The position numbers and the translations under genes are program-made. Shown here one piece after another: positions 1 through 35,288 of a stretch of DNA of 36,297 nucleotides. Origin of the DNA: a virus; IMG/VR virus record IMGVR_UViG_3300042922_000698, positions 1-36,297 of that record. One strand, given 5' to 3'. Under the pieces are notes generated by a model. The model made no database searches. It worked only from the letters and a program-made list of their open reading frames with translations, and was not told the origin of the DNA. Every line of letters starts with the position of its first letter. Positions within the stretch are counted from its first letter, which is position 1.

Positions 1-176
1 TGGTTGCCCTGATGGTGCTGGTGGCGCTGATTAACCGATACTGGCTGGTACCGCGATTCCGCCTGGCTGGCAGCGGGACGCAGCAAAAATTTATTCGCAT
101 GACGCAGCTTGAACTGCTGCTGGCGTGCGGAGTGGTTGGGCTGGTCAGCGTATTTGCCACGCTGTCGCCAGCCTGA
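1..176 (+). CDS. yebZ: CopD/YebZ-family membrane protein, C-terminal end (partial)
   Basis: The first complete codon is at position 3; the frame runs 58 codons to a TGA at 174-176. The visible end has one hydrophobic stretch, a basic cytoplasmic-looking segment ([13 protein letters not shown]), then a last membrane helix ending FATLSPA. This tail looks like the end of the CopD-family (copper resistance D) inner-membrane protein that precedes yebY in enteric bacteria. The family is linked to copper uptake or homeostasis in the inner membrane. The yebZ-yebY order is the known one, which supports the call; only the last fifth of the protein is in the window, so the name rests on context and a short match. 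Confidence 0.75.
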
Positions 177-204
177 ATGTGGTTTAAGAGAGAAAAGGGT
201 AGTT

Positions 205-552
205 ATGTTGCTGAAGAAAGTGATCCCCGCAATCCTGTTGTTATCCGTATGCGGCCAGGCGCTGGCGGCACAAATCATTACCGTCAGCCGCTTTGAGATC
301 GGTAAAGAGAAGTGGCCGTTTAACCGTGAAGAGGTGATGCTGACCTGTGAGAAAGATGGTGCGATGTTTGCCATCAACCCGAGCACGCTGATGACATACC
401 CCCTGAACGATATCGCCGACACACTGTTCAAAAACAAACAGGTGAAAGCGCAGCCGATCAGCGTGATTCAGGTTGAAGATAAAGCGCATCCGGGCCAGAT
501 GATGAGTCTGCAGCCGATTGTTGAGCGCACCCAGGCGCTGTGCGGTAAATAA
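205..552 (+). CDS. yebY: YebY family protein (DUF2511), secreted
   Basis: A 115-residue protein. The ATG at 205 was chosen over an upstream ATG at 109 because a purine-rich ribosome site (GAGAGAAAAGGG) lies just before it and the protein then begins with a clean signal peptide: Lys-Lys, a hydrophobic core, and a likely cut after LAA. The mature part keeps the family pattern seen in E. coli YebY (ITVSRFEIGKEKWPFNREEV, then INPSTLMTYPLNDIA). The role is unknown; periplasmic location is inferred from the signal peptide. It lies 28 bases after the copD-like gene, so the two are probably cotranscribed. It is intact and belongs to the host flank. Confidence 0.9.
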   Translation: MLLKKVIPAILLLSVCGQALAAQIITVSRFEIGKEKWPFNREEVMLTCEKDGAMFAINPSTLMTYPLNDIADTLFKNKQVKAQPISVIQVEDKAHPGQMMSLQPIVERTQALCGK

Positions 553-670
553 ACCTGTCGGGTGCAGCACCGCGCTGCGCCCAACCCCTCTTTTTTGCCG
601 TTGCGATCACAAACTGATCCGGTTTATGGTCCTGCGCCTCCCGTTTGCTGGCAATTCCACCGCGCTGTTC

Positions 671-851: not shown

Positions 852-1916
852 CTACTCTGCTGGACCCTGTGCCGCCACTTTGCCGCCATTTTTCTTTGCC
901 AATAACGCCAGCGGATTGCAGCGAATTGCATCCTCAAGATGATCGGGCGCGAAGTGCGCATAACGCATCGTCACCCTGATGTCGGAATGCCCGAGAATAC
1001 GCTGCAGCACGATGATGTTTCCCCCGGCCATCATAAAGTGACTGGCAAAGCTATGGCGCAGTACATGGCTCATCTGGCCTTCAGGTAATTCAATACCGGC
1101 CAGGCGAATGACCCGATAAAACTGGCGATAGCACTCTGCAAAAAAACGGCCCTCTTTGTCTTTTAATTCATTATACAGAGCGTTGTCGATGGGTACCGAG
1201 CGGTTCTTTTTGCCTTTGGTATTGATGAAAGTGATTTTGTTTGGGGACAATTGTGAGGCTTTAAGATTCGCGGCTTCACTCCATCGGCACCCGGTTGAAA
1301 GGCAGATTTTGATAATCAGCGTCAGATCAGGGTTATCGTGAACTTGGCAGGCGGCAAACAGCTTTTGTATCTGGGCTTCAGTCAACCATGCCATTTCTTT
1401 CTCTGGCTGATCAAACTCGCGTATATTTTTAAGTGGGTTGGGGTAGCTGATTTCGCCAAGCCGTTCCAGTTCATTAAAAAGAGCCCGAAGGAATGCATGT
1501 TCACAGTTAATGGTACCCGGTGAGACCTTTAACGATTTATCACTGGTTTTGTATCCGTTCTGTATGAGTCCCTGTAAACGCCGATCCCGATAATGTGCCC
1601 AATCCTTCGAAGTGATAGAGGCAGCAACGGGGTTTCCCATACCATTGCAAATAATATTGAGTTTGCCGAGTCGGCCTTTTCTGTCACTTAGCGAGCAACC
1701 GTGCAGTTTGTACCATAGCTCGATAAGTTCGCTAAGCTTGCGGTTATCCTCTTTCTCAGCCAGCCAGGGTTTAGCCTTCATTTCGTCCTGAGTGTATTGC
1801 TCAAAGGCAATGGCTTCGGCACGGGTCCTGAACTGTCGTCTCACTCGTTTACCATCCCTTCCATTGAGATAGCACTCGCAGAGCCACTTACCTGTATTTA
1901 ATTTCCTTATTGCCAT
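852..1916 (-). CDS. int: P2-type tyrosine integrase
   Basis: 354 residues, typical for P2-family integrases. It catalyses recombination between attP and attB, and excision together with a Cox-type factor. The N-terminal arm-binding part starts like P2 Int (MAIRKL, then RRQFRTRAEAIAFEQYT). The catalytic core shows Arg211 (STGCRWSEA), His284 and Arg287 (HVLRHSFASH), His310 (LGHS) and the nucleophile Tyr319 (MRYAHF), so it should be active. The start ATG has the ribosome site AAGGGGGA five bases upstream. The gene ends 68 bases from attL. It lies next to ogr, on the opposite side of the attachment site from cI, unlike P2, and a LexA box covers its promoter. Confidence 0.96.
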   Translation of the reverse strand: MAIRKLNTGKWLCECYLNGRDGKRVRRQFRTRAEAIAFEQYTQDEMKAKPWLAEKEDNRKLSELIELWYKLHGCSLSDRKGRLGKLNIICNGMGNPVAASITSKDWAHYRDRRLQGLIQNGYKTSDKSLKVSPGTINCEHAFLRALFNELERLGEISYPNPLKNIREFDQPEKEMAWLTEAQIQKLFAACQVHDNPDLTLIIKICLSTGCRWSEAANLKASQLSPNKITFINTKGKKNRSVPIDNALYNELKDKEGRFFAECYRQFYRVIRLAGIELPEGQMSHVLRHSFASHFMMAGGNIIVLQRILGHSDIRVTMRYAHFAPDHLEDAIRCNPLALLAKKNGGKVAAQGPAE

Positions 1917-1942: not shown

Positions 1943-1971
1943 AAATTACTGTATGTAAAAACAGTATTCAA
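1943..1971 (-). promoter_or_regulatory. int promoter overlapped by a LexA (SOS) box
   Basis: On the minus strand TTGAAT (1966-1971) and TAATTT (1943-1948) are separated by 17 bases. A LexA box fills the spacer: at 1947-1966 the plus strand reads TACTGTATGTAAAAACAGTA, which has CTGT-N8-ACAG and both flanking TA pairs of the consensus. Binding of LexA here would block polymerase. The -10 is a weak match (3 of 6), so the promoter is less certain than the operator. Confidence 0.75.
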
Positions 1972-24104: not shown

Positions 24105-24854
24105 CTAAACCTGAGCCGTGATTACACGCCTGACAGCATCATGTAACCTCTGGAAATTAACGCCTTTCCTTGAAGCGCCAAACTCCATTAGCTGATGACC
24201 ACTAAACTTAGTGTCCCTTCTTTTGTCCGACAGCCGACGCGTCAGCAAAGCAAACAGGGACTTACCGCGAATTAAACTCCCTATATTTGATTGAATTTCA
24301 GCATATAGATGCTCAGGATAATGTTCACCTTCCTCCAAAACTAATGAGGAATGATAAAACTCTTGATCATCTAAAACCTTCCCTGGGTGTTCTCGAAAAG
24401 AAAAAGAGTTATTTTGCCTTTGGTATCTGTCCAGTGATAAAGCAAACCATCTTGAGAATAACTGAACTTCATTGACAAACAATCTTTTTTCATCGACAGT
24501 CAAGAGGCTAATCAAATCCCCATCAGAATATAGATCATTTTCAATTGAATACCCAGTGGTTGTAATAATATCATCGAAACCTTCAGGCTTCCCAAAATAA
24601 ACCCATGTATCATTATCTACTATGAAGGCAATGGGAGTTTTGATCTGGCTTTGAGTAATTCTTTGGCGTAATTCCAATACTGAACCTTTACATCCAGCTG
24701 GTAACATATCTACACCCAAGTCCGATAACCCCTCTTCAAGACGCCTATAGAAAATAATATCATCCTTTCCTTCAACTAAAACAGTGGGGATGCTAGTTCT
24801 TTTGAGTAATTCAAAAAGTTCATCCACAGATGGCCTGCGTTTTGCATTACTCAT
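24105..24854 (-). CDS. DUF4435 TOPRIM-like protein (AriB-like, PARIS)
   Basis: 249 residues from the ATG at 24854 (ribosome site AGGGGAG five bases before; an in-frame GTG at 24860 is poorer). The N-terminal TOPRIM-like core has Glu29 and Asp31-Asp32 (VLVEGKDD), Asp80 and Asp82 (FIVDNDTW) and the DUF4435 signature GYSIENDLYS with Glu105. In PARIS systems AriB is held inactive by the ATPase AriA, is released by phage anti-restriction proteins, and then acts as a nuclease (reported to cut tRNA). It starts within five bases of the ATPase stop. Smaller than the described AriB, so it may belong to a related subtype. Confidence 0.8.
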   Translation of the reverse strand: MSNAKRRPSVDELFELLKRTSIPTVLVEGKDDIIFYRRLEEGLSDLGVDMLPAGCKGSVLELRQRITQSQIKTPIAFIVDNDTWVYFGKPEGFDDIITTTGYSIENDLYSDGDLISLLTVDEKRLFVNEVQLFSRWFALSLDRYQRQNNSFSFREHPGKVLDDQEFYHSSLVLEEGEHYPEHLYAEIQSNIGSLIRGKSLFALLTRRLSDKRRDTKFSGHQLMEFGASRKGVNFQRLHDAVRRVITAQV

Positions 24855-24856
24855 TG

Positions 24857-25963
24857 TCACTCCCCTTTATCAACGCCCATCGAAACTTCTTTATCAGGAT
24901 ATTTACCATAAATAAACGGGGAGTGTGTAGCAAATATAAATTGATTAGAAGGATTTTGATTTTGAAGAATTGAAAATATCTGCCTTTGCCAATCAACATG
25001 TAAGCTAAGCTCAGGCTCATCGATGAAAATTACTGAATCTTGATGAAATGCATTATAACAAATAAAACTTAAAAGTTGTTTTTCGCCTGCGGACAAAACA
25101 TCACTATTTACGGCTTCTGCGGCATCGCCAAAATTTAGCCTCTTGCCGAATGAAATCCCCGAGTGTTGAAATAATTTTTCAACCAAGGCCCTAACAGCCT
25201 CATAAGGAACCATCGTTTGTGATCTAAATTCTTCAATCTTTTCTATTTCTTCTCTGGTTTCTGAGAGCAAAGAATCGGCATCTCCATGCTCTCCCTGAGA
25301 TTTTTGATGTCTTTTTATCTTATCAATAACGCTTCTAGATACTTCTTGCTGGAATGAGTTAATCTCCTCTGAAAATGCTGCGTAGCGTCTTAAAAGCAAG
25401 CTGTTAATATCCTTTGTAGATATAGCCGCTACAAATAAATTTGAAGGGTTACTAAATTTTCTTGAAAGAGAATCCAGTGCCTCATCGATTTCTGAAACAG
25501 GCCTTGCACCGGTACGAACCCTAGTATTGCTATTCTGTAATAATGAAAATCCACCTTCAATTCTACGGAATGTTGGAAAGAATATAGACCCACCATTTGC
25601 GAGTAAATAGGACTTGGCTTTTTCTTCAGCCGACTCACCAAAAAAACCTTCTTCGGGAAAGTCAGGGTCATCTTCTAAAGTAAAGCTCTCTCCATTTATG
25701 GTCATTTCTATCTTACAAAAAACATCACCCGTTCTTATGACGGTGCACGTATAAAGAGAGGTCACAACGGTACAAGATTTAAAATCGACTTCCCGCAACG
25801 CATAAATAATATTCCCACTTATTATGAACCAAACTAGTTTCATCAATGTGGTTTTACCGGAACCATTTCGGCCCGTAATCAAATTGAGATCTTCATTAAA
25901 ATTATATTTCTGTTGAGAATTTTTCCCAAATAAACCAACTACAGTAACTGACCTTAGTTTCAT
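24857..25963 (-). CDS. ABC-type AAA ATPase (AriA-like, PARIS)
   Basis: 368 residues with a complete ABC-type ATPase: Walker A GRNGSGKTT (31-39), signature LSAGEKQLLSF (290-300), Walker B VIFIDEPELSLH (311-322) and switch His347 (FATHSPFIYG). The middle (about 95-285) is helical. This architecture, paired with a DUF4435 protein downstream, is that of PARIS AriA, an ATPase that senses phage anti-restriction proteins; AriA is usually longer (over 400 residues), so the subtype is uncertain. Alternatives are other ATPase-TOPRIM pairs such as OLD-like systems. AT-rich, own promoter at 26051-26079, between gpQ and cos: a known type of position for P2-family defence cargo. Confidence 0.82.
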   Translation of the reverse strand: MKLRSVTVVGLFGKNSQQKYNFNEDLNLITGRNGSGKTTLMKLVWFIISGNIIYALREVDFKSCTVVTSLYTCTVIRTGDVFCKIEMTINGESFTLEDDPDFPEEGFFGESAEEKAKSYLLANGGSIFFPTFRRIEGGFSLLQNSNTRVRTGARPVSEIDEALDSLSRKFSNPSNLFVAAISTKDINSLLLRRYAAFSEEINSFQQEVSRSVIDKIKRHQKSQGEHGDADSLLSETREEIEKIEEFRSQTMVPYEAVRALVEKLFQHSGISFGKRLNFGDAAEAVNSDVLSAGEKQLLSFICYNAFHQDSVIFIDEPELSLHVDWQRQIFSILQNQNPSNQFIFATHSPFIYGKYPDKEVSMGVDKGE

Positions 25964-26301: not shown

Positions 26302-26325
26302 CAAAAAGCCACCTGAAAGGTGGCT
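26302..26325 (-). terminator. Terminator after the LexA-boxed small gene
   Basis: Minus strand: AGCCACCT, three-base loop, AGGTGGCT, then TTTTTGC. A perfect 8-bp stem with a T-tract, 28 bases after the small gene's stop. It stops right-end transcription before cos. Confidence 0.9.
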
Positions 26326-26352: not shown

Positions 26353-26529
26353 TCATTCAGCCTGGCGGTATATGGCAGCTTCGAAAACAGATGTGTCGAT
26401 TGTTCCTGCCATGTCGCTGATCATCGACAGTGCCATTTTTAATTCATCTTCTTTGCAGTGTGCGATCAGTGATACGTCGGCAATGAACTGAATGCGTGCG
26501 ACCGTTTCACTTAGATTATCTATGCTCAT
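26353..26529 (-). CDS. Small SOS-regulated protein at the right end (58 aa)
   Basis: 58 residues: it begins MSIDNLSETVARIQFIADVS and ends EAAIYRQAE; predominantly helical, acidic, no known domain. The ribosome site AGAAGGAG lies 11 bases before the ATG at 26529, or eight before a TTG at 26532, so the TTG (one residue longer) may be the true start. A strong LexA box lies 30 bases upstream of the ATG and a perfect terminator follows the gene, so it is a self-contained SOS unit. In phage 186 the LexA-controlled antirepressor gene tum is at the same place, next to cos, but Tum is about 146 residues and I see no likeness. An antirepressor role is inferred from position and control. Confidence 0.7.
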   Translation of the reverse strand: MSIDNLSETVARIQFIADVSLIAHCKEDELKMALSMISDMAGTIDTSVFEAAIYRQAE

Positions 26530-26558
26530 CAAATGATTAACTCCTTCTGGTCAAAATA

Positions 26559-26578
26559 TACTGTATGTATAAACAGTA
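26559..26578 (-). promoter_or_regulatory. LexA (SOS) box upstream of the small right-end gene
   Basis: TACTGTATGTATAAACAGTA on the plus strand has CTGT-N8-ACAG with matching flanks, one of the closest possible matches to the enteric LexA consensus. It overlaps a likely minus-strand promoter (TTGAAG, 16 bases, TATACA). Confidence 0.88.
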
Positions 26579-26638
26579 TCATGGTGACTTCAAATCGTAA
26601 AGAATCGTGCGGTTCAGATTAGTCCGACTGCCGTTTTA

Positions 26639-28867
26639 TTAATCAGGCAGCTGTATGCCTCTTTTTCTCGCGAGCGCAATGAAGCGCTTTAGTGGTGTGG
26701 GATTTTTGCGCCGACTATGGAAGAGGTAGCCGCTTGTACCGCTCCAGTAAGAAAGCTCCCCAACCTTTATTGTATGGCCTTTCATCATGCGTACAGCTTC
26801 ACCGTCGGATAGTGTTAACCTGGAGATCTCAAAGAAACTCTTTTTCAACGTTTCCCGTTCTTTGTAATGACTCAGTTCAGAGTGAGATTTGTTCGGCTCA
26901 GGTTGCTCCTGCGCTGGCTTTTCTCTTAATCGCTTAAGAATCCTTCTGCGATCGGCGCGAGTAGGGGGTTTAGAGAAATCGATAGCAGCCTCGGAGTCTG
27001 TTGGCTCCGTACAGTTATTGACAGAACTCCGAGAGGACGCGGACGCGTCCTTAAATTCCAAACCCAAATCAACGGCACGTTTCGGGACAATCTTCCATTG
27101 CATCAGACGGGTTAAAATTGACGTATCGTCGCCAACTTCGGTTGCGTAAACACCCTTGATGCGCACGGTTTCCTCACCGTATTCATTAAAGTTTTCACTT
27201 GCCTGATACCAGGTGCGCACAGCCAGTTCGTCGCGGCGCACGAACGGGCCTCCCTGCGCGTTAACATATCCAGCCCAGTCTCCTGCATCGGCTGCATCAT
27301 GCGCTGCCGCAAACTCGACGCTAAGTCCGTGCGCGGTTTCGCTGTCAGCCATGCGGCGCAGTTCGCGGTAAACCGTGACCGGCGCGCCGCCCACAAACTG
27401 GAATTGCCGTATGTGCCAGCGTGCCGCCCATGCGGAAACGGCCGAGGCGGTTTCCTTCAGGTCTTTGCCGCTTTCGTCGTCCCTCTCGCCGTCCAGCGCG
27501 TAGCCATCGATATTCTTGGAAATGTATTTAGCAACATAACCCGTCGCGCTGCCTTTCTCCGGGTTAATAGCCTCGGCGTGAAAACGAGCCTTACGGGCCT
27601 TTTCGGTTGTCAGTTCGCTGCCGTCTTCCTGCCAGGCGTAGTCGCGGATAATCTCGCGCACGCGCTCAGCCTGCTCCGGGCGCATAAACATAAGCATGTG
27701 CCAGTGCGGGGTTGCATCATGATGAGGCTCAGCAACGCGAATCCCGAAGATGCGGATTTCTTCGCGGTGCAGCTTGGCGCGGATTTTCTGCCAGACACGG
27801 CAGAGATAACGCTGCGTGTCGGCCGGGCTGGCACCATTCCATTTACGGTTACGATGCCCGGTTTTGATTGTGGCGTGATAGCGCGCGGGGGCGGTCAGCG
27901 TGTAGAACTCGCCGATAAAGCCCATCTCATTGCAGATGTTTTCGAAGCCGCGAATGCGGGTCATCAGCTCGCAGCGGCGAATCGCCGGATTGGCCACACT
28001 GCCGTCGTATTTCTCAATCAGGCTGATGCGGTTGCCTTCTTCGTCTTCCAGCTCCATTCCCTTCAGAAATTCACGGGTGCGGCGCTTCTGCTCGCGCCAC
28101 TCTGAAACGGTCATGCTGCTGGCGTAGGGGGTGTGTTTTTTGCTGACGTTAGCCAGGGCAATCTGAAGATGCTCACGCCATGATGCGGCCACGCGGCGCA
28201 GTCGGCCTTTCCACCATTTTTCCGTCTGCATACGCATGATCGCCGGGGTAACTTCCTCCGGGTCAAATAGCCGCGACGTGACTTTATCCCACAATGGCGG
28301 CATCTGGTTCAGCTCGCGGGTAATAGTGGCGGCAGTCATGTAAACGCGGTGCGTGTATTTGTAATCTGACTCGGCGCTGGCCTGCGCGTGTGCCTGTACC
28401 AGCTCGGCGAGAATGAAATTAGCCACATCCCCAGCAAGCAAATCGACGTCAGCGCGAGCCATATCCGGCAGGCGGTTAAAGCGGCGCATCAGATTGAAAA
28501 GCTGACCACCTGCTACCGCCGCATTGTCACGCTCAGTTGCGTTACCGCCGAGTAACTTTAATGTGCTCCCCTTCATTACCCCGACACGATATTGAGCGTT
28601 AACGGTTTCAACGCGTGGCAATGTGCGCTCAACAAATGTCTTTACTAAGTACGCATTGGCGCGGGCTGTTCCCTGCGTCTTTTCCAGATCGCTGATGCGG
28701 CGTTTAACGTCGAGTTGTATCAGAGCAGGCTGCATAACGAGCAACTCCTGCGCACGCACTAAAGCCGCAATCATCTGACTGCGGCTGTGCATTTCCTCAT
28801 AGGTGGGATAGGGGCTGGCGATGGCTTCCCGTGGAGCATTCCACGGGTAAGCAAATTCCTCATGCAT
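26639..28867 (-). CDS. A: Rolling-circle replication initiation endonuclease gpA
   Basis: 742 residues (P2 gpA 761). It nicks the origin inside its own gene and starts rolling-circle replication. The HUH metal motif is His388-Trp-His390 (ATPHWHMLMF), and the two catalytic tyrosines are Tyr444 and Tyr448 (GYVAKYISKNID), matching the P2 pair spaced by four. The C-terminal 170 residues are variable and polar. The start ATG overlaps the stop of the TraR/DksA-like gene. Codon use is that of the phage core, not of the AT-rich cargo. Confidence 0.95.
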   Translation of the reverse strand: MHEEFAYPWNAPREAIASPYPTYEEMHSRSQMIAALVRAQELLVMQPALIQLDVKRRISDLEKTQGTARANAYLVKTFVERTLPRVETVNAQYRVGVMKGSTLKLLGGNATERDNAAVAGGQLFNLMRRFNRLPDMARADVDLLAGDVANFILAELVQAHAQASAESDYKYTHRVYMTAATITRELNQMPPLWDKVTSRLFDPEEVTPAIMRMQTEKWWKGRLRRVAASWREHLQIALANVSKKHTPYASSMTVSEWREQKRRTREFLKGMELEDEEGNRISLIEKYDGSVANPAIRRCELMTRIRGFENICNEMGFIGEFYTLTAPARYHATIKTGHRNRKWNGASPADTQRYLCRVWQKIRAKLHREEIRIFGIRVAEPHHDATPHWHMLMFMRPEQAERVREIIRDYAWQEDGSELTTEKARKARFHAEAINPEKGSATGYVAKYISKNIDGYALDGERDDESGKDLKETASAVSAWAARWHIRQFQFVGGAPVTVYRELRRMADSETAHGLSVEFAAAHDAADAGDWAGYVNAQGGPFVRRDELAVRTWYQASENFNEYGEETVRIKGVYATEVGDDTSILTRLMQWKIVPKRAVDLGLEFKDASASSRSSVNNCTEPTDSEAAIDFSKPPTRADRRRILKRLREKPAQEQPEPNKSHSELSHYKERETLKKSFFEISRLTLSDGEAVRMMKGHTIKVGELSYWSGTSGYLFHSRRKNPTPLKRFIALARKRGIQLPD

Positions 28868-30948: not shown

Positions 30949-31785
30949 ATGCGCATTGAAAAAGCTGTTGGGCCTGAAGTTTTAGAGCGAATGCTTTCTG
31001 CATACGGCTTCAGTATGCAAAAGGAGCTGGCCGAGCATCTGGGTATAGCTAAAAGCAATGTTGCTGGCTGGGTGCAACGCGGGCAGGTTCCGGGTAATGC
31101 TATTGTGCAGTGCGCTTTAGATACTGGCGCTGATGTTAATTGGTTAGTAACAGGCGAACTTGAAAAAGCAAACTCTGTGCCTGAACTGCCTAACCTGACT
31201 GGTAAAGCTGTCTACGATGAAGTTTTGGCTAATGGTGGTAAACCTGTTCTTCGCCGTATCCTTGATGCATATGGATTTACACTGCAAAAGCAACTTTGTG
31301 AATTATTGGATATTTCATCAGGGACGGTCAGTACTTGGGTAAGGCGGAATTATTTTCCTGGTGATGTTGTTGTCACGTGTGCAATCGATACTGGTGTGTC
31401 TCTTAGATGGTTAGCAACCGGGAAAGGGAATTTAAACAAGGAACAAATTTCTATTGATGCTGTAAATGAAATCCCACGTAAGGTTTTAACTTCTGGAGTT
31501 CTAAGTGACTCTGGAAGTTGGACTGTTGATCTTAGCTTTATTAAGCATTCCTTCAAACAGCCAGTTTTTATATCCAGCAACTATGCTTCTTGGATTGTTG
31601 ATATGAATATCACAGATATAAGCAACGGAAAATGGCTTCTAGGTATTGATGATAAATACGACGTTTACGATATAACAGTCTTACCAGGCCGTAAAATTGA
31701 GGTTGTTAAAACTAATAATTTTATATGCGGAATCGATGAAGTAAAGGCTGTGGGTAAAGTAATTATTACCTTAGTAACTGACTGA
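30949..31785 (+). CDS. cI: CI-type phage repressor with two helix-turn-helix domains
   Basis: 278 residues; the phage 186 CI is 192. The N-terminal DNA-binding domain occurs twice in tandem, at about residues 11-70 and 100-159. The copies align without gaps and are 50 percent identical (30 of 60), both having AYGF..QK.L, a turn helix (KSNVAGWVQRG; GTVSTWVRRN), CA.DTG and W L.TG. The C-terminal domain (about 180-278, with LPGRKIEVV and FICGIDEVKAVGKVI) resembles that of 186 CI, which forms higher-order oligomers. It represses the divergent cox promoter. AGGG lies seven bases before the ATG. cI probably starts a transcript that continues into the cargo genes. Confidence 0.92.
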   Translation: MRIEKAVGPEVLERMLSAYGFSMQKELAEHLGIAKSNVAGWVQRGQVPGNAIVQCALDTGADVNWLVTGELEKANSVPELPNLTGKAVYDEVLANGGKPVLRRILDAYGFTLQKQLCELLDISSGTVSTWVRRNYFPGDVVVTCAIDTGVSLRWLATGKGNLNKEQISIDAVNEIPRKVLTSGVLSDSGSWTVDLSFIKHSFKQPVFISSNYASWIVDMNITDISNGKWLLGIDDKYDVYDITVLPGRKIEVVKTNNFICGIDEVKAVGKVIITLVTD

Positions 31786-31828
31786 TGTGGCGTATATCAG
31801 TGTTTTTTTGTTTTTTGAAGGAATTACT

Positions 31829-32872
31829 ATGAGGCGGGAGTCTTTAGATTTTGAATGTTTAGTTAAAGAAATATTCCAACACTTATCTTGTGATTTAAAA
31901 AGTGATTGGAATGATAAGTTTGATATGGTTTTTGATTGGAATGATTCTGAGTACGTTTCCGAGATAAAATATTATCGAACAATTAGGGCGCAGGTTTCTC
32001 TTATTAATCGTGCTATTTTTCAATTTAAGAGAATTAAAGATGCTCGGCAGAATTTTATTGATGATGGCGTTGGTGGGCTATTGATTATTTCATCATATCT
32101 TGAGTCAGGGTTAAAGAATGTTATAGAAAATGAAGAGGACATTGTAATTGTTGATTTGTATGATCTTCTGGCATTAACATCTGAATTACCCGAACATAGA
32201 GAGAAGCTAATAAAATTACTTGAGATTCCTGACGGGTTGATTGATGCAAATAAAGGAAGGGATTTAGAAGAAATATTTGCTCGAGAAGATAGTTTTCATG
32301 ACAGGGTTAATCGCTCTGTACCTGTTGAAGATGACCCTCAAAATAATGAGCAGTTGATATCCAGATTGTTAGACCTACCTGCTGGTAAAAAACATTGGAA
32401 GAGTTATGAGACTTTAATGATTGAAATACTAAAGTTCCTTTTTGAGGATGATTTAAAAGGATGGTATACGCAATATGAAAGTGAGAATAAATTAAACAGA
32501 TATGATTGTGTTTGCGGAATAAAGAAAACCACAGAGTTTTGGTCGTTATTAATTGAACAGTTAAAGTCTAATTATTTATTAATCGAATTTAAAAACTATA
32601 GTGATGAGATCACTCAGGGTGAAGTGTTGACCACTGAGAAGTATCTATTTGAAAATGCTTTTAGAAAAGTCGCTTTGATATTTTGTAGGAAAGGGGCTAA
32701 TCACTCAGCGTTGCAAATGTGCATGGGGGCTATGAGAGAAAGTGGGCGTCTTATACTTGTTCTCGATGATAAAGATGTTGTCGAGATGATTCATAGTAAA
32801 GAAAATGGGAGTGATCCATCTGATTTTTTGCATCAAAAAGTCGATGATTTTCTGATGAGATTATCCAGATAA
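31829..32872 (+). CDS. Cargo protein with two PD-(D/E)xK-like nuclease cores
   Basis: 347 residues from the ATG at 31829 (AAGGA, six bases before); a GTG-like upstream start at 31787 is not supported. I recognise no named family. The N-terminal domain looks Mrr-like: helix FECLVKEIFQHL, Asp32/Asp36 and Glu45-x-Lys47 (SEIKYYR), then IISSYLE. The C-terminal domain repeats the plan: helix YETLMIEILKFL, Asp226 (RYDCV), Glu253-x-Lys255 (LLIEFKNY), then TTEKYLFENAF and ALIFCRKGA. Both could be active nucleases of the restriction-endonuclease fold. AT-rich, 43 bases after cI, and reading the same way, so expressed in the lysogen. An anti-phage role is inferred. Confidence 0.82.
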   Translation: MRRESLDFECLVKEIFQHLSCDLKSDWNDKFDMVFDWNDSEYVSEIKYYRTIRAQVSLINRAIFQFKRIKDARQNFIDDGVGGLLIISSYLESGLKNVIENEEDIVIVDLYDLLALTSELPEHREKLIKLLEIPDGLIDANKGRDLEEIFAREDSFHDRVNRSVPVEDDPQNNEQLISRLLDLPAGKKHWKSYETLMIEILKFLFEDDLKGWYTQYESENKLNRYDCVCGIKKTTEFWSLLIEQLKSNYLLIEFKNYSDEITQGEVLTTEKYLFENAFRKVALIFCRKGANHSALQMCMGAMRESGRLILVLDDKDVVEMIHSKENGSDPSDFLHQKVDDFLMRLSR

Positions 32873-34536: not shown

Positions 34537-34836
34537 TTATTTACCCAACCAGCGTCCGGCCTGTGCAGACTCAATTAACAGACGAATAGTCAGCGGATCG
34601 TGCGGTGCGTTGAAATCTTCCGGGAAATATTCGGCAAACGTGATAGAGCCGGGATTAATACCAAATCTGTCAGCATACCGCTCTAGCAATTCATACGCGT
34701 CAAGAGGATCCATGCGAAAGTCATTGTTCAGAGCGGTATCCCGCTCAAGCTTATAACGTCTTAACGTAAACAAACTTCTGCCGTTATAATCTTCAACCAG
34801 CGCAAATACAGCTTTCTCTATATCCTCACTTACCAT
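34537..34836 (-). CDS. DUF1493 family protein
   Basis: 99 residues with the family pattern LRRYKLERDTALNNDFRMD, GYD-like DAYELLERYADRFGI and FAEYFPEDFNAP, ending ESAQAGRWLGK. DUF1493 proteins are acyl-carrier-like in outline and are encoded beside STM2901-type proteins in Salmonella and related bacteria; the function is unknown. Its start lies inside the last codons of the upstream gene (seven-base overlap), so the pair is coupled. Host flank. Confidence 0.88.
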   Translation of the reverse strand: MVSEDIEKAVFALVEDYNGRSLFTLRRYKLERDTALNNDFRMDPLDAYELLERYADRFGINPGSITFAEYFPEDFNAPHDPLTIRLLIESAQAGRWLGK

Positions 34837-35288
34837 ATCTTGTCGTCCTTATGAGCAATAAGGTTATATTTTACCGTAGTTTTCCAGCCAATTTCTGCCA
34901 CATCAACGGCCATAATTACCCAGCCTAAAACGGGGATTGTGCGACCGACGAACGTCCCCAGCTTGTGAGTCATTAACATCTTAATTTGAAGAGGATTTTT
35001 AGGGTTCTGTATCCACGTGGGTAATCTGAATGGAAGACGGTAATCCCGTAACAGCTTTCGAGAATAGACCGAAGCATAAGAGGTGCCTTTCCATGCTCCG
35101 TTTAGCTTACCGGATACGTCAATCGTATTTTGTCCCGAGTAAATCGCAACCAGAGCGATGATATCCTTTGTACCGCTGAAGTGCTCTGCAGTCACATCAA
35201 TCATTATCCAGAAATAAAGCTCTCCTGCAGAAAGGTTAGTAAGTCCGCCATAGAAGTAAGTTCCGTTTAACTGCTCCGTTGTATCCAT
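34830..35288 (-). CDS. STM2901 family protein
   Basis: 152 residues. The N-terminus (MDTTEQLNGTYFYGGLTNLS) and the blocks IALVAIYSGQNTIDVSGKL and RTIPVLGWVIMAVDVAEIGW match the STM2901 family from Salmonella. Two hydrophobic stretches (about 22-34 and 117-131) suggest membrane association. It is the first gene of a two-gene unit with DUF1493. Function unknown; the pair is often near horizontally acquired DNA, which fits its place next to the prophage. Confidence 0.85.
   Translation of the reverse strand: MDTTEQLNGTYFYGGLTNLSAGELYFWIMIDVTAEHFSGTKDIIALVAIYSGQNTIDVSGKLNGAWKGTSYASVYSRKLLRDYRLPFRLPTWIQNPKNPLQIKMLMTHKLGTFVGRTIPVLGWVIMAVDVAEIGWKTTVKYNLIAHKDDKIW

Follow-up and report, generated by a model that had tools for sequence, protein, structure and literature searches.

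A stand-alone TumA-type gene, probably encoding a LexA-controlled antirepressor, next to gene A in a virus sequence with a 186-type CI repressor

Introduction

Tum is an antirepressor, which binds its repressor and prevents it from binding to the operator (PMC3121763). The p95-tum module relieves the CI repression of pR after UV (PMC7708051), and lysis of a P2-like prophage is blocked either by deletion of tum or by an uncleavable LexA (PMC12055606). The Tum protein of phage 186 has 146 residues and carries a fused DinI domain. In PSP3 there are two genes instead, tumA (AAN08399.1) and, 3 nt downstream, tumB; the PSP3 record describes the first product as "similar to 5' end 186 tum; UV induction of prophage" and the second as "similar to dinI and 3' end of 186 tum". 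The antirepressor activity of PSP3 TumA is reported as a personal communication, quoted secondhand in PMC3121763. In the literature searched, which did not cover the primary Tum papers, we found no experimental mapping of the antirepressor activity to the N-terminal domain of Tum. GfoA, GftA, and GfhA of the Gifsy phages are also small, LexA-controlled inactivators of uncleaved prophage repressors (PMC3121763); the parallel drawn here with TumA is a functional one, and the repressors of these phages are smaller (136 aa in strain LT2; PMC3121763).

Here we describe a gene of this kind in a sequence of 36,297 nucleotides, IMG/VR virus record IMGVR_UViG_3300042922_000698, which as a whole is called the window. 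Related loci are designated by L numbers where they have to be told apart.

Results

The tumA unit. A preliminary description had placed between gene A and the putative cos an isolated unit formed by a LexA box, a 58-codon frame with a ribosome binding site, and a terminator. All these elements were confirmed, and they are listed here with gene A and the likely promoter.

26639 to 28867, minus strand: gene A (replication; Phage_GPA, E 1e-123), the upstream neighbour of tumA, which marks the tum position
26573 to 26601, minus strand: likely promoter of tumA, by direct reading of the sequence and analogy with the annotated p95 of 186
26561 to 26576, minus strand: predicted LexA operator of tumA
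26541 to 26546, minus strand: ribosome binding site AAGGAG, by direct reading
26353 to 26529, minus strand: tumA, coding for a putative 58-residue TumA-type antirepressor (phrog_1993 match, identity to PSP3 TumA, pN/pS, and three-helix model, given below)
26302 to 26325, minus strand: predicted intrinsic terminator of tumA

The frame runs from the ATG at 26529 to the stop at 26353 and has 58 codons, or 59 if the alternative TTG at 26532 is used. It lies directly after gene A and towards the putative cos, an order common to 186 and PSP3. The LexA box was rightly called near-perfect, with one mismatch to the consensus used; it reads CTGTATGTATAAACAG on the plus strand (26561-26576) and CTGTTTATACATACAG in minus-strand letters (26576-26561). 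The exact core CTGT-N8-ACAG was found twice in the window against 0.27 expected, and when up to 3 mismatches to the LexA consensus were admitted there were 7 matches against 0.25 expected, a number reached by none of 100 shuffles. The likely promoter would consist of TTTACG (26601-26596), a spacer of 17 nt, and the extended -10 TGATACTGT (26581-26573), and the latter overlaps the LexA box, as in the annotated p95 of 186. The terminator is located just beyond the stretch 26353-26578 of the preliminary description and shows a stem of 8 pairs, a 3-nt loop, and the run TTTTT (26325-26307), with a fold of -13.3 kcal/mol and a z of -3.2.

The spot between tumA and the portal gene (24105-25963, minus strand) is an accessory one and contains an AAA ATPase matching AriA together with a DUF4435/TOPRIM-like protein matching AriB, that is, a PARIS-like defence pair.

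Likeness to Tum and TumA. The window protein matches PHROG family 1993 (phrog_1993) with E 2.3e-20 and residues 1-61 of 186 Tum match the same family with E 1e-22, so the former is homologous to the N-terminal domain of the latter. Over this domain the two are no more than about 21% identical, and phmmer, run on a set of only 11 sequences, gave E 4.7e-4 for the pair. By tblastn against named phages, PSP3 TumA and its copies in SEN1, SI22/SW9, Midge, 613R3, and RCIP0057 were found; these proteins have about 60 residues and are 42-44% identical to that of the window (41.7% over 48 aa for PSP3 TumA). The protein had been said to show no likeness to Tum, which these matches contradict, and it had been proposed as a new minimal antirepressor; PSP3, SEN1, and others already have an annotated form of some 60 residues, and copies that stand alone are frequent. 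Searches of Pfam, NCBIfam, PADLOC, and PDB sequences with the 58-residue protein gave no usable match. The AlphaFold2 model is composed of three helices (residues 3-22, 27-41, and 47-57) with a mean pLDDT of 86.5, and Foldseek gave no significant match for it in PDB or BFVD. Judging from the sequence, the window protein is very probably a TumA-type, LexA-controlled antirepressor that has no DinI partner.

PSP3-type TumA resembles that of the window in its place after gene A, in the LexA box just upstream, and in its double-headed CI partner; the difference is that tumB (DinI) follows in PSP3, whereas in the window there is no DinI gene and the terminator comes at once. 186 Tum shares with the window protein the family, the position, the LexA control, and the CI family of the target, but its CI has a single HTH and its DinI domain is fused. 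The Yersinia phage vB_YenM_31.17 has a stand-alone TumA-type hypothetical protein, vBYenM3117_014, after gene A and with a LexA box; it is 46.7% identical to the window protein over 45 residues, its CI partner is single-headed, and no DinI match was seen within the 8 kb read. Taking all loci together, the family is fused to DinI in 186 and L201, split with an adjoining DinI gene in PSP3 and in L197, L198, L205, and L206, and alone in this window and in L196, L199, L200, L202, L203, and L207-L209 (flanks as read). DinI (PF06183) had no match anywhere in the window, nor was there any in the related Pantoea-type loci. The stand-alone form, in which the antirepressor half of Tum does without DinI, is common and hence not peculiar to this phage.

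Conservation of the gene. The pooled pN/pS of 84 copies of tumA from relatives, 59 of them distinct, was 0.12, and by this value tumA is a real gene under purifying selection. The exact core of the box was present 18-32 nt upstream of the tumA start in 88 of 92 loci, window included, the exceptions being L049 (one mismatch), L067, L085, and L002. A sample of Enterobacterales genomes added 15 loci, and 13 of these had a LexA-type box near the gene. One viral collection contained 350 relatives, and the hosts, where named, were Pantoea, Erwinia, and Winslowiella; blastn detected no copy of tumA in complete E. coli genomes.

The CI repressor. The presumed target of TumA is also coded in the window.

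30949 to 31785, plus strand: 186-type CI repressor, presumed TumA target (Pfam Phage_CI_repr in two stretches and Phage_CI_C)

This protein has duplicated HTH heads at about residues 8-70 and 98-162, followed by a 186-type C-terminal domain. Its residues 99-272 match the solved structure of 186 CI, 2fjr, with E 6e-23, and the front HTH is evidently a tandem copy. There was no peptidase among the 25 Pfam matches listed, and since no protease domain is recognisable CI is not expected to be cleaved. The two heads, to which the preliminary description had drawn attention, are real in the window, but a two-headed CI, 54% identical to that of the window over 265 residues, is also present in PSP3-type phages. 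In the literature examined we found no remark on the two heads of PSP3 CI. Among the deposited PSP3-type phages, a TumA match goes together with the best match to the double-headed CI, one that covers its full length. Single-headed CIs coexist with TumA in L092, L093, L098, L099, and Yersinia phage 31.17, so two heads are no requirement for TumA.

The TumA family was present in 11 of 295 sampled Enterobacterales genomes, and a Phage_CI_C repressor in all 11. For most TumA loci in these genomes CI was located within about 10 kb on the same contig; the exceptions were L199 (a short contig), L209 (the degraded prophage of L001), and L206 (CI on another contig of a fragmented assembly). Relatives lacking CI were considered as counter-evidence to the pairing and rejected: L001-L003 are degraded remnants whose A and portal genes are truncated, and in L076 the expected place of CI is occupied by host-like genes, a layout shared by L072 and L075. 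Since these places are degraded or hold host-like genes, they give no sign of another repressor.

In L223, L226, and L229 (G263:C11:15956-17547) three tandem genes for 186-type CI repressors occur near one TumA gene. Behind cI in the window (31787-32872) there is a 361-residue protein whose C-terminal part matches the candidate defence family PDC-M36A (E 4e-9) and which also matches phrog_31260, of unknown function.

Only 6-16% of gene A is left in L051, L053, L054, L074, L078, and L083, and CI and TumA are both kept. From their gene content, the elements without most of gene A are possibly SOS-inducible tailocins that keep the CI-TumA pair. The same six loci also keep Cox and CII, and in L074 a portal remnant runs straight into likely baseplate genes J and I (frames read by eye).

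Possible contact between TumA and CI. Phages at least 95% identical in TumA have double-headed CIs that are 49-100% identical, which speaks against tight pairing; because near-identical TumA proteins go with divergent or single-headed CIs, TumA does not track CI closely. Among 32 non-redundant TumA-linked double-headed CIs, the mean identity fell from 81% in the proximal head, as we call the HTH adjoining the C-terminal domain, to 63% in the other head and 46% in the C-terminal domain itself. GT[VI]STW, a motif of the proximal head, is also found in the single-headed CIs that accompany TumA in L092, L200, L203, and Yersinia phage 31.17, but not in the CIs paired with 186-type Tum. The similarity of TumA was correlated with that of the proximal head (rho 0.71; 0.68 after accounting for gene A and 0.61 after accounting for the C-terminal domain), and its correlation with the C-terminal domain was -0.13 when the head was accounted for. 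With the five 186-type pairs removed, the partial rho between TumA and the proximal head given gene A was 0.04, and thus coevolution was discarded as proof of the docking site: the signal rests on one deep split, 186-type versus TumA-type. Docking of TumA on the HTH adjoining the C-terminal domain of CI is weakly suggested by these comparisons. The occurrence of near-identical TumA proteins with very different CIs makes the site by which Tum grips CI directly testable.

A second LexA box. The other LexA box of the window is located at the integrase gene.

1949 to 1964, minus strand: second LexA box, upstream of int and outside the tumA unit (conserved upstream of int in relatives)
852 to 1916, minus strand: integrase, int (tyrosine recombinase matches; about 57% identity to integrases of PSP3-like phages)

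The box is 32 nt upstream of the int ATG at 1916, and a terminator-like stem behind ogr (2018-2002) separates int from late transcription. Compared with 186 and PSP3, in which int comes after cI, the int module of the window is inverted. A LexA box was found at 42 of the 45 related integrases that follow ogr and at none of the 22 that follow cI, in 67 loci, window included, whose upstream neighbour was classable; close relatives are among them, and the counts do not represent independent events. The deposited Klebsiella phage 4LV2017 has in front of int a box with one core mismatch (CTGGTTATACACACAG). The box and its distribution suggest that the integrase is under SOS control, and it is likely that this box belongs to the SOS-responsive set of the phage. 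Control by LexA is known for integron integrases (PMC3108266); for the integrase of a P2-like phage no description was found in our literature set, which is incomplete, so that this absence proves little. The int box may be the fresher lead.

Discussion

We consider it highly likely that tumA codes for a stand-alone, LexA-controlled antirepressor of CI, homologous to the N-terminal domain of 186 Tum and to PSP3 TumA. The idea of such an antirepressor at the tum position, already advanced in the preliminary description, is well supported by homology, by the operator, and by the CI gene nearby; what does not hold is its novelty. By analogy, TumA would act on this double-headed CI as Tum does on 186 CI. 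In the lysogen, LexA bound to the operator that overlaps the promoter would keep tumA off; DNA damage would remove LexA and TumA would be made; TumA would then bind the 186-type CI repressor, and when CI leaves its operators the early lytic promoter would fire and the prophage would be induced. If this role of tumA holds, the induction trigger has been identified for hundreds of related prophage sequences.

It is also conceivable, although we regard it as rather doubtful, that TumA is a broad antirepressor acting as well on heteroimmune prophages of the same kind, a reading that extends the one preferred here and is not its opposite. The near-identical TumA proteins that accompany CIs of very different sequence agree with it, as does the identity of the proximal head, higher than that of the other head and of the C-terminal domain, and the Gifsy antirepressors do act across prophages (PMC3121763). 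However, the head might just as well be conserved because of a conserved DNA site, and the covariation depends on the single deep split mentioned above.

The LexA control, and the fact that DinI is a fused or neighbouring domain in 186 and PSP3, would also fit a TumA that modulates the host SOS response through RecA or LexA and not through CI, as is assumed for the DinI half of Tum. This is improbable, for the half of Tum that the protein matches is the N-terminal one and not the DinI one, it has no Pfam match to DinI, and the window contains none either. That TumA is a small SOS-induced toxin or a host-takeover accessory gene merely placed at the tum position can be given hardly any weight: the spot does take up accessory genes, as the adjoining defence-like pair matching AriA and AriB demonstrates, but the protein is homologous to Tum, the gene is conserved with its operator in nearly all loci, and TumA is retained with CI in the elements that lost gene A.

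Returning to TumA as an antirepressor of CI, if the int box is functional, SOS would trigger derepression and, separately from it, the production of integrase. A two-part switch can then be put forward, tentatively and as less than probable: TumA would grip the proximal HTH of CI, whose conservation across divergent immunity types could allow a single TumA to induce several heteroimmune prophages, and the relocated, inverted int would have its own LexA promoter, the excision enzyme being made at the same signal.

Finally, some other features were noted. The left end of the window (1-600) resembles a host copD-yebY (DUF2511) region. PSP3-type phages have a gene between cI and int, annotated as DUF2511 in Midge and SI22 and also seen in L111 (3322-3660), which was perhaps picked up from a copD-yebY-like attachment region. 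A gene of the STM2901 family with a 99-residue partner is located at the right end of the window (34537-35288) and directly behind tumA in L074 (3599-4350); being placed differently in both, this pair moves between accessory spots.
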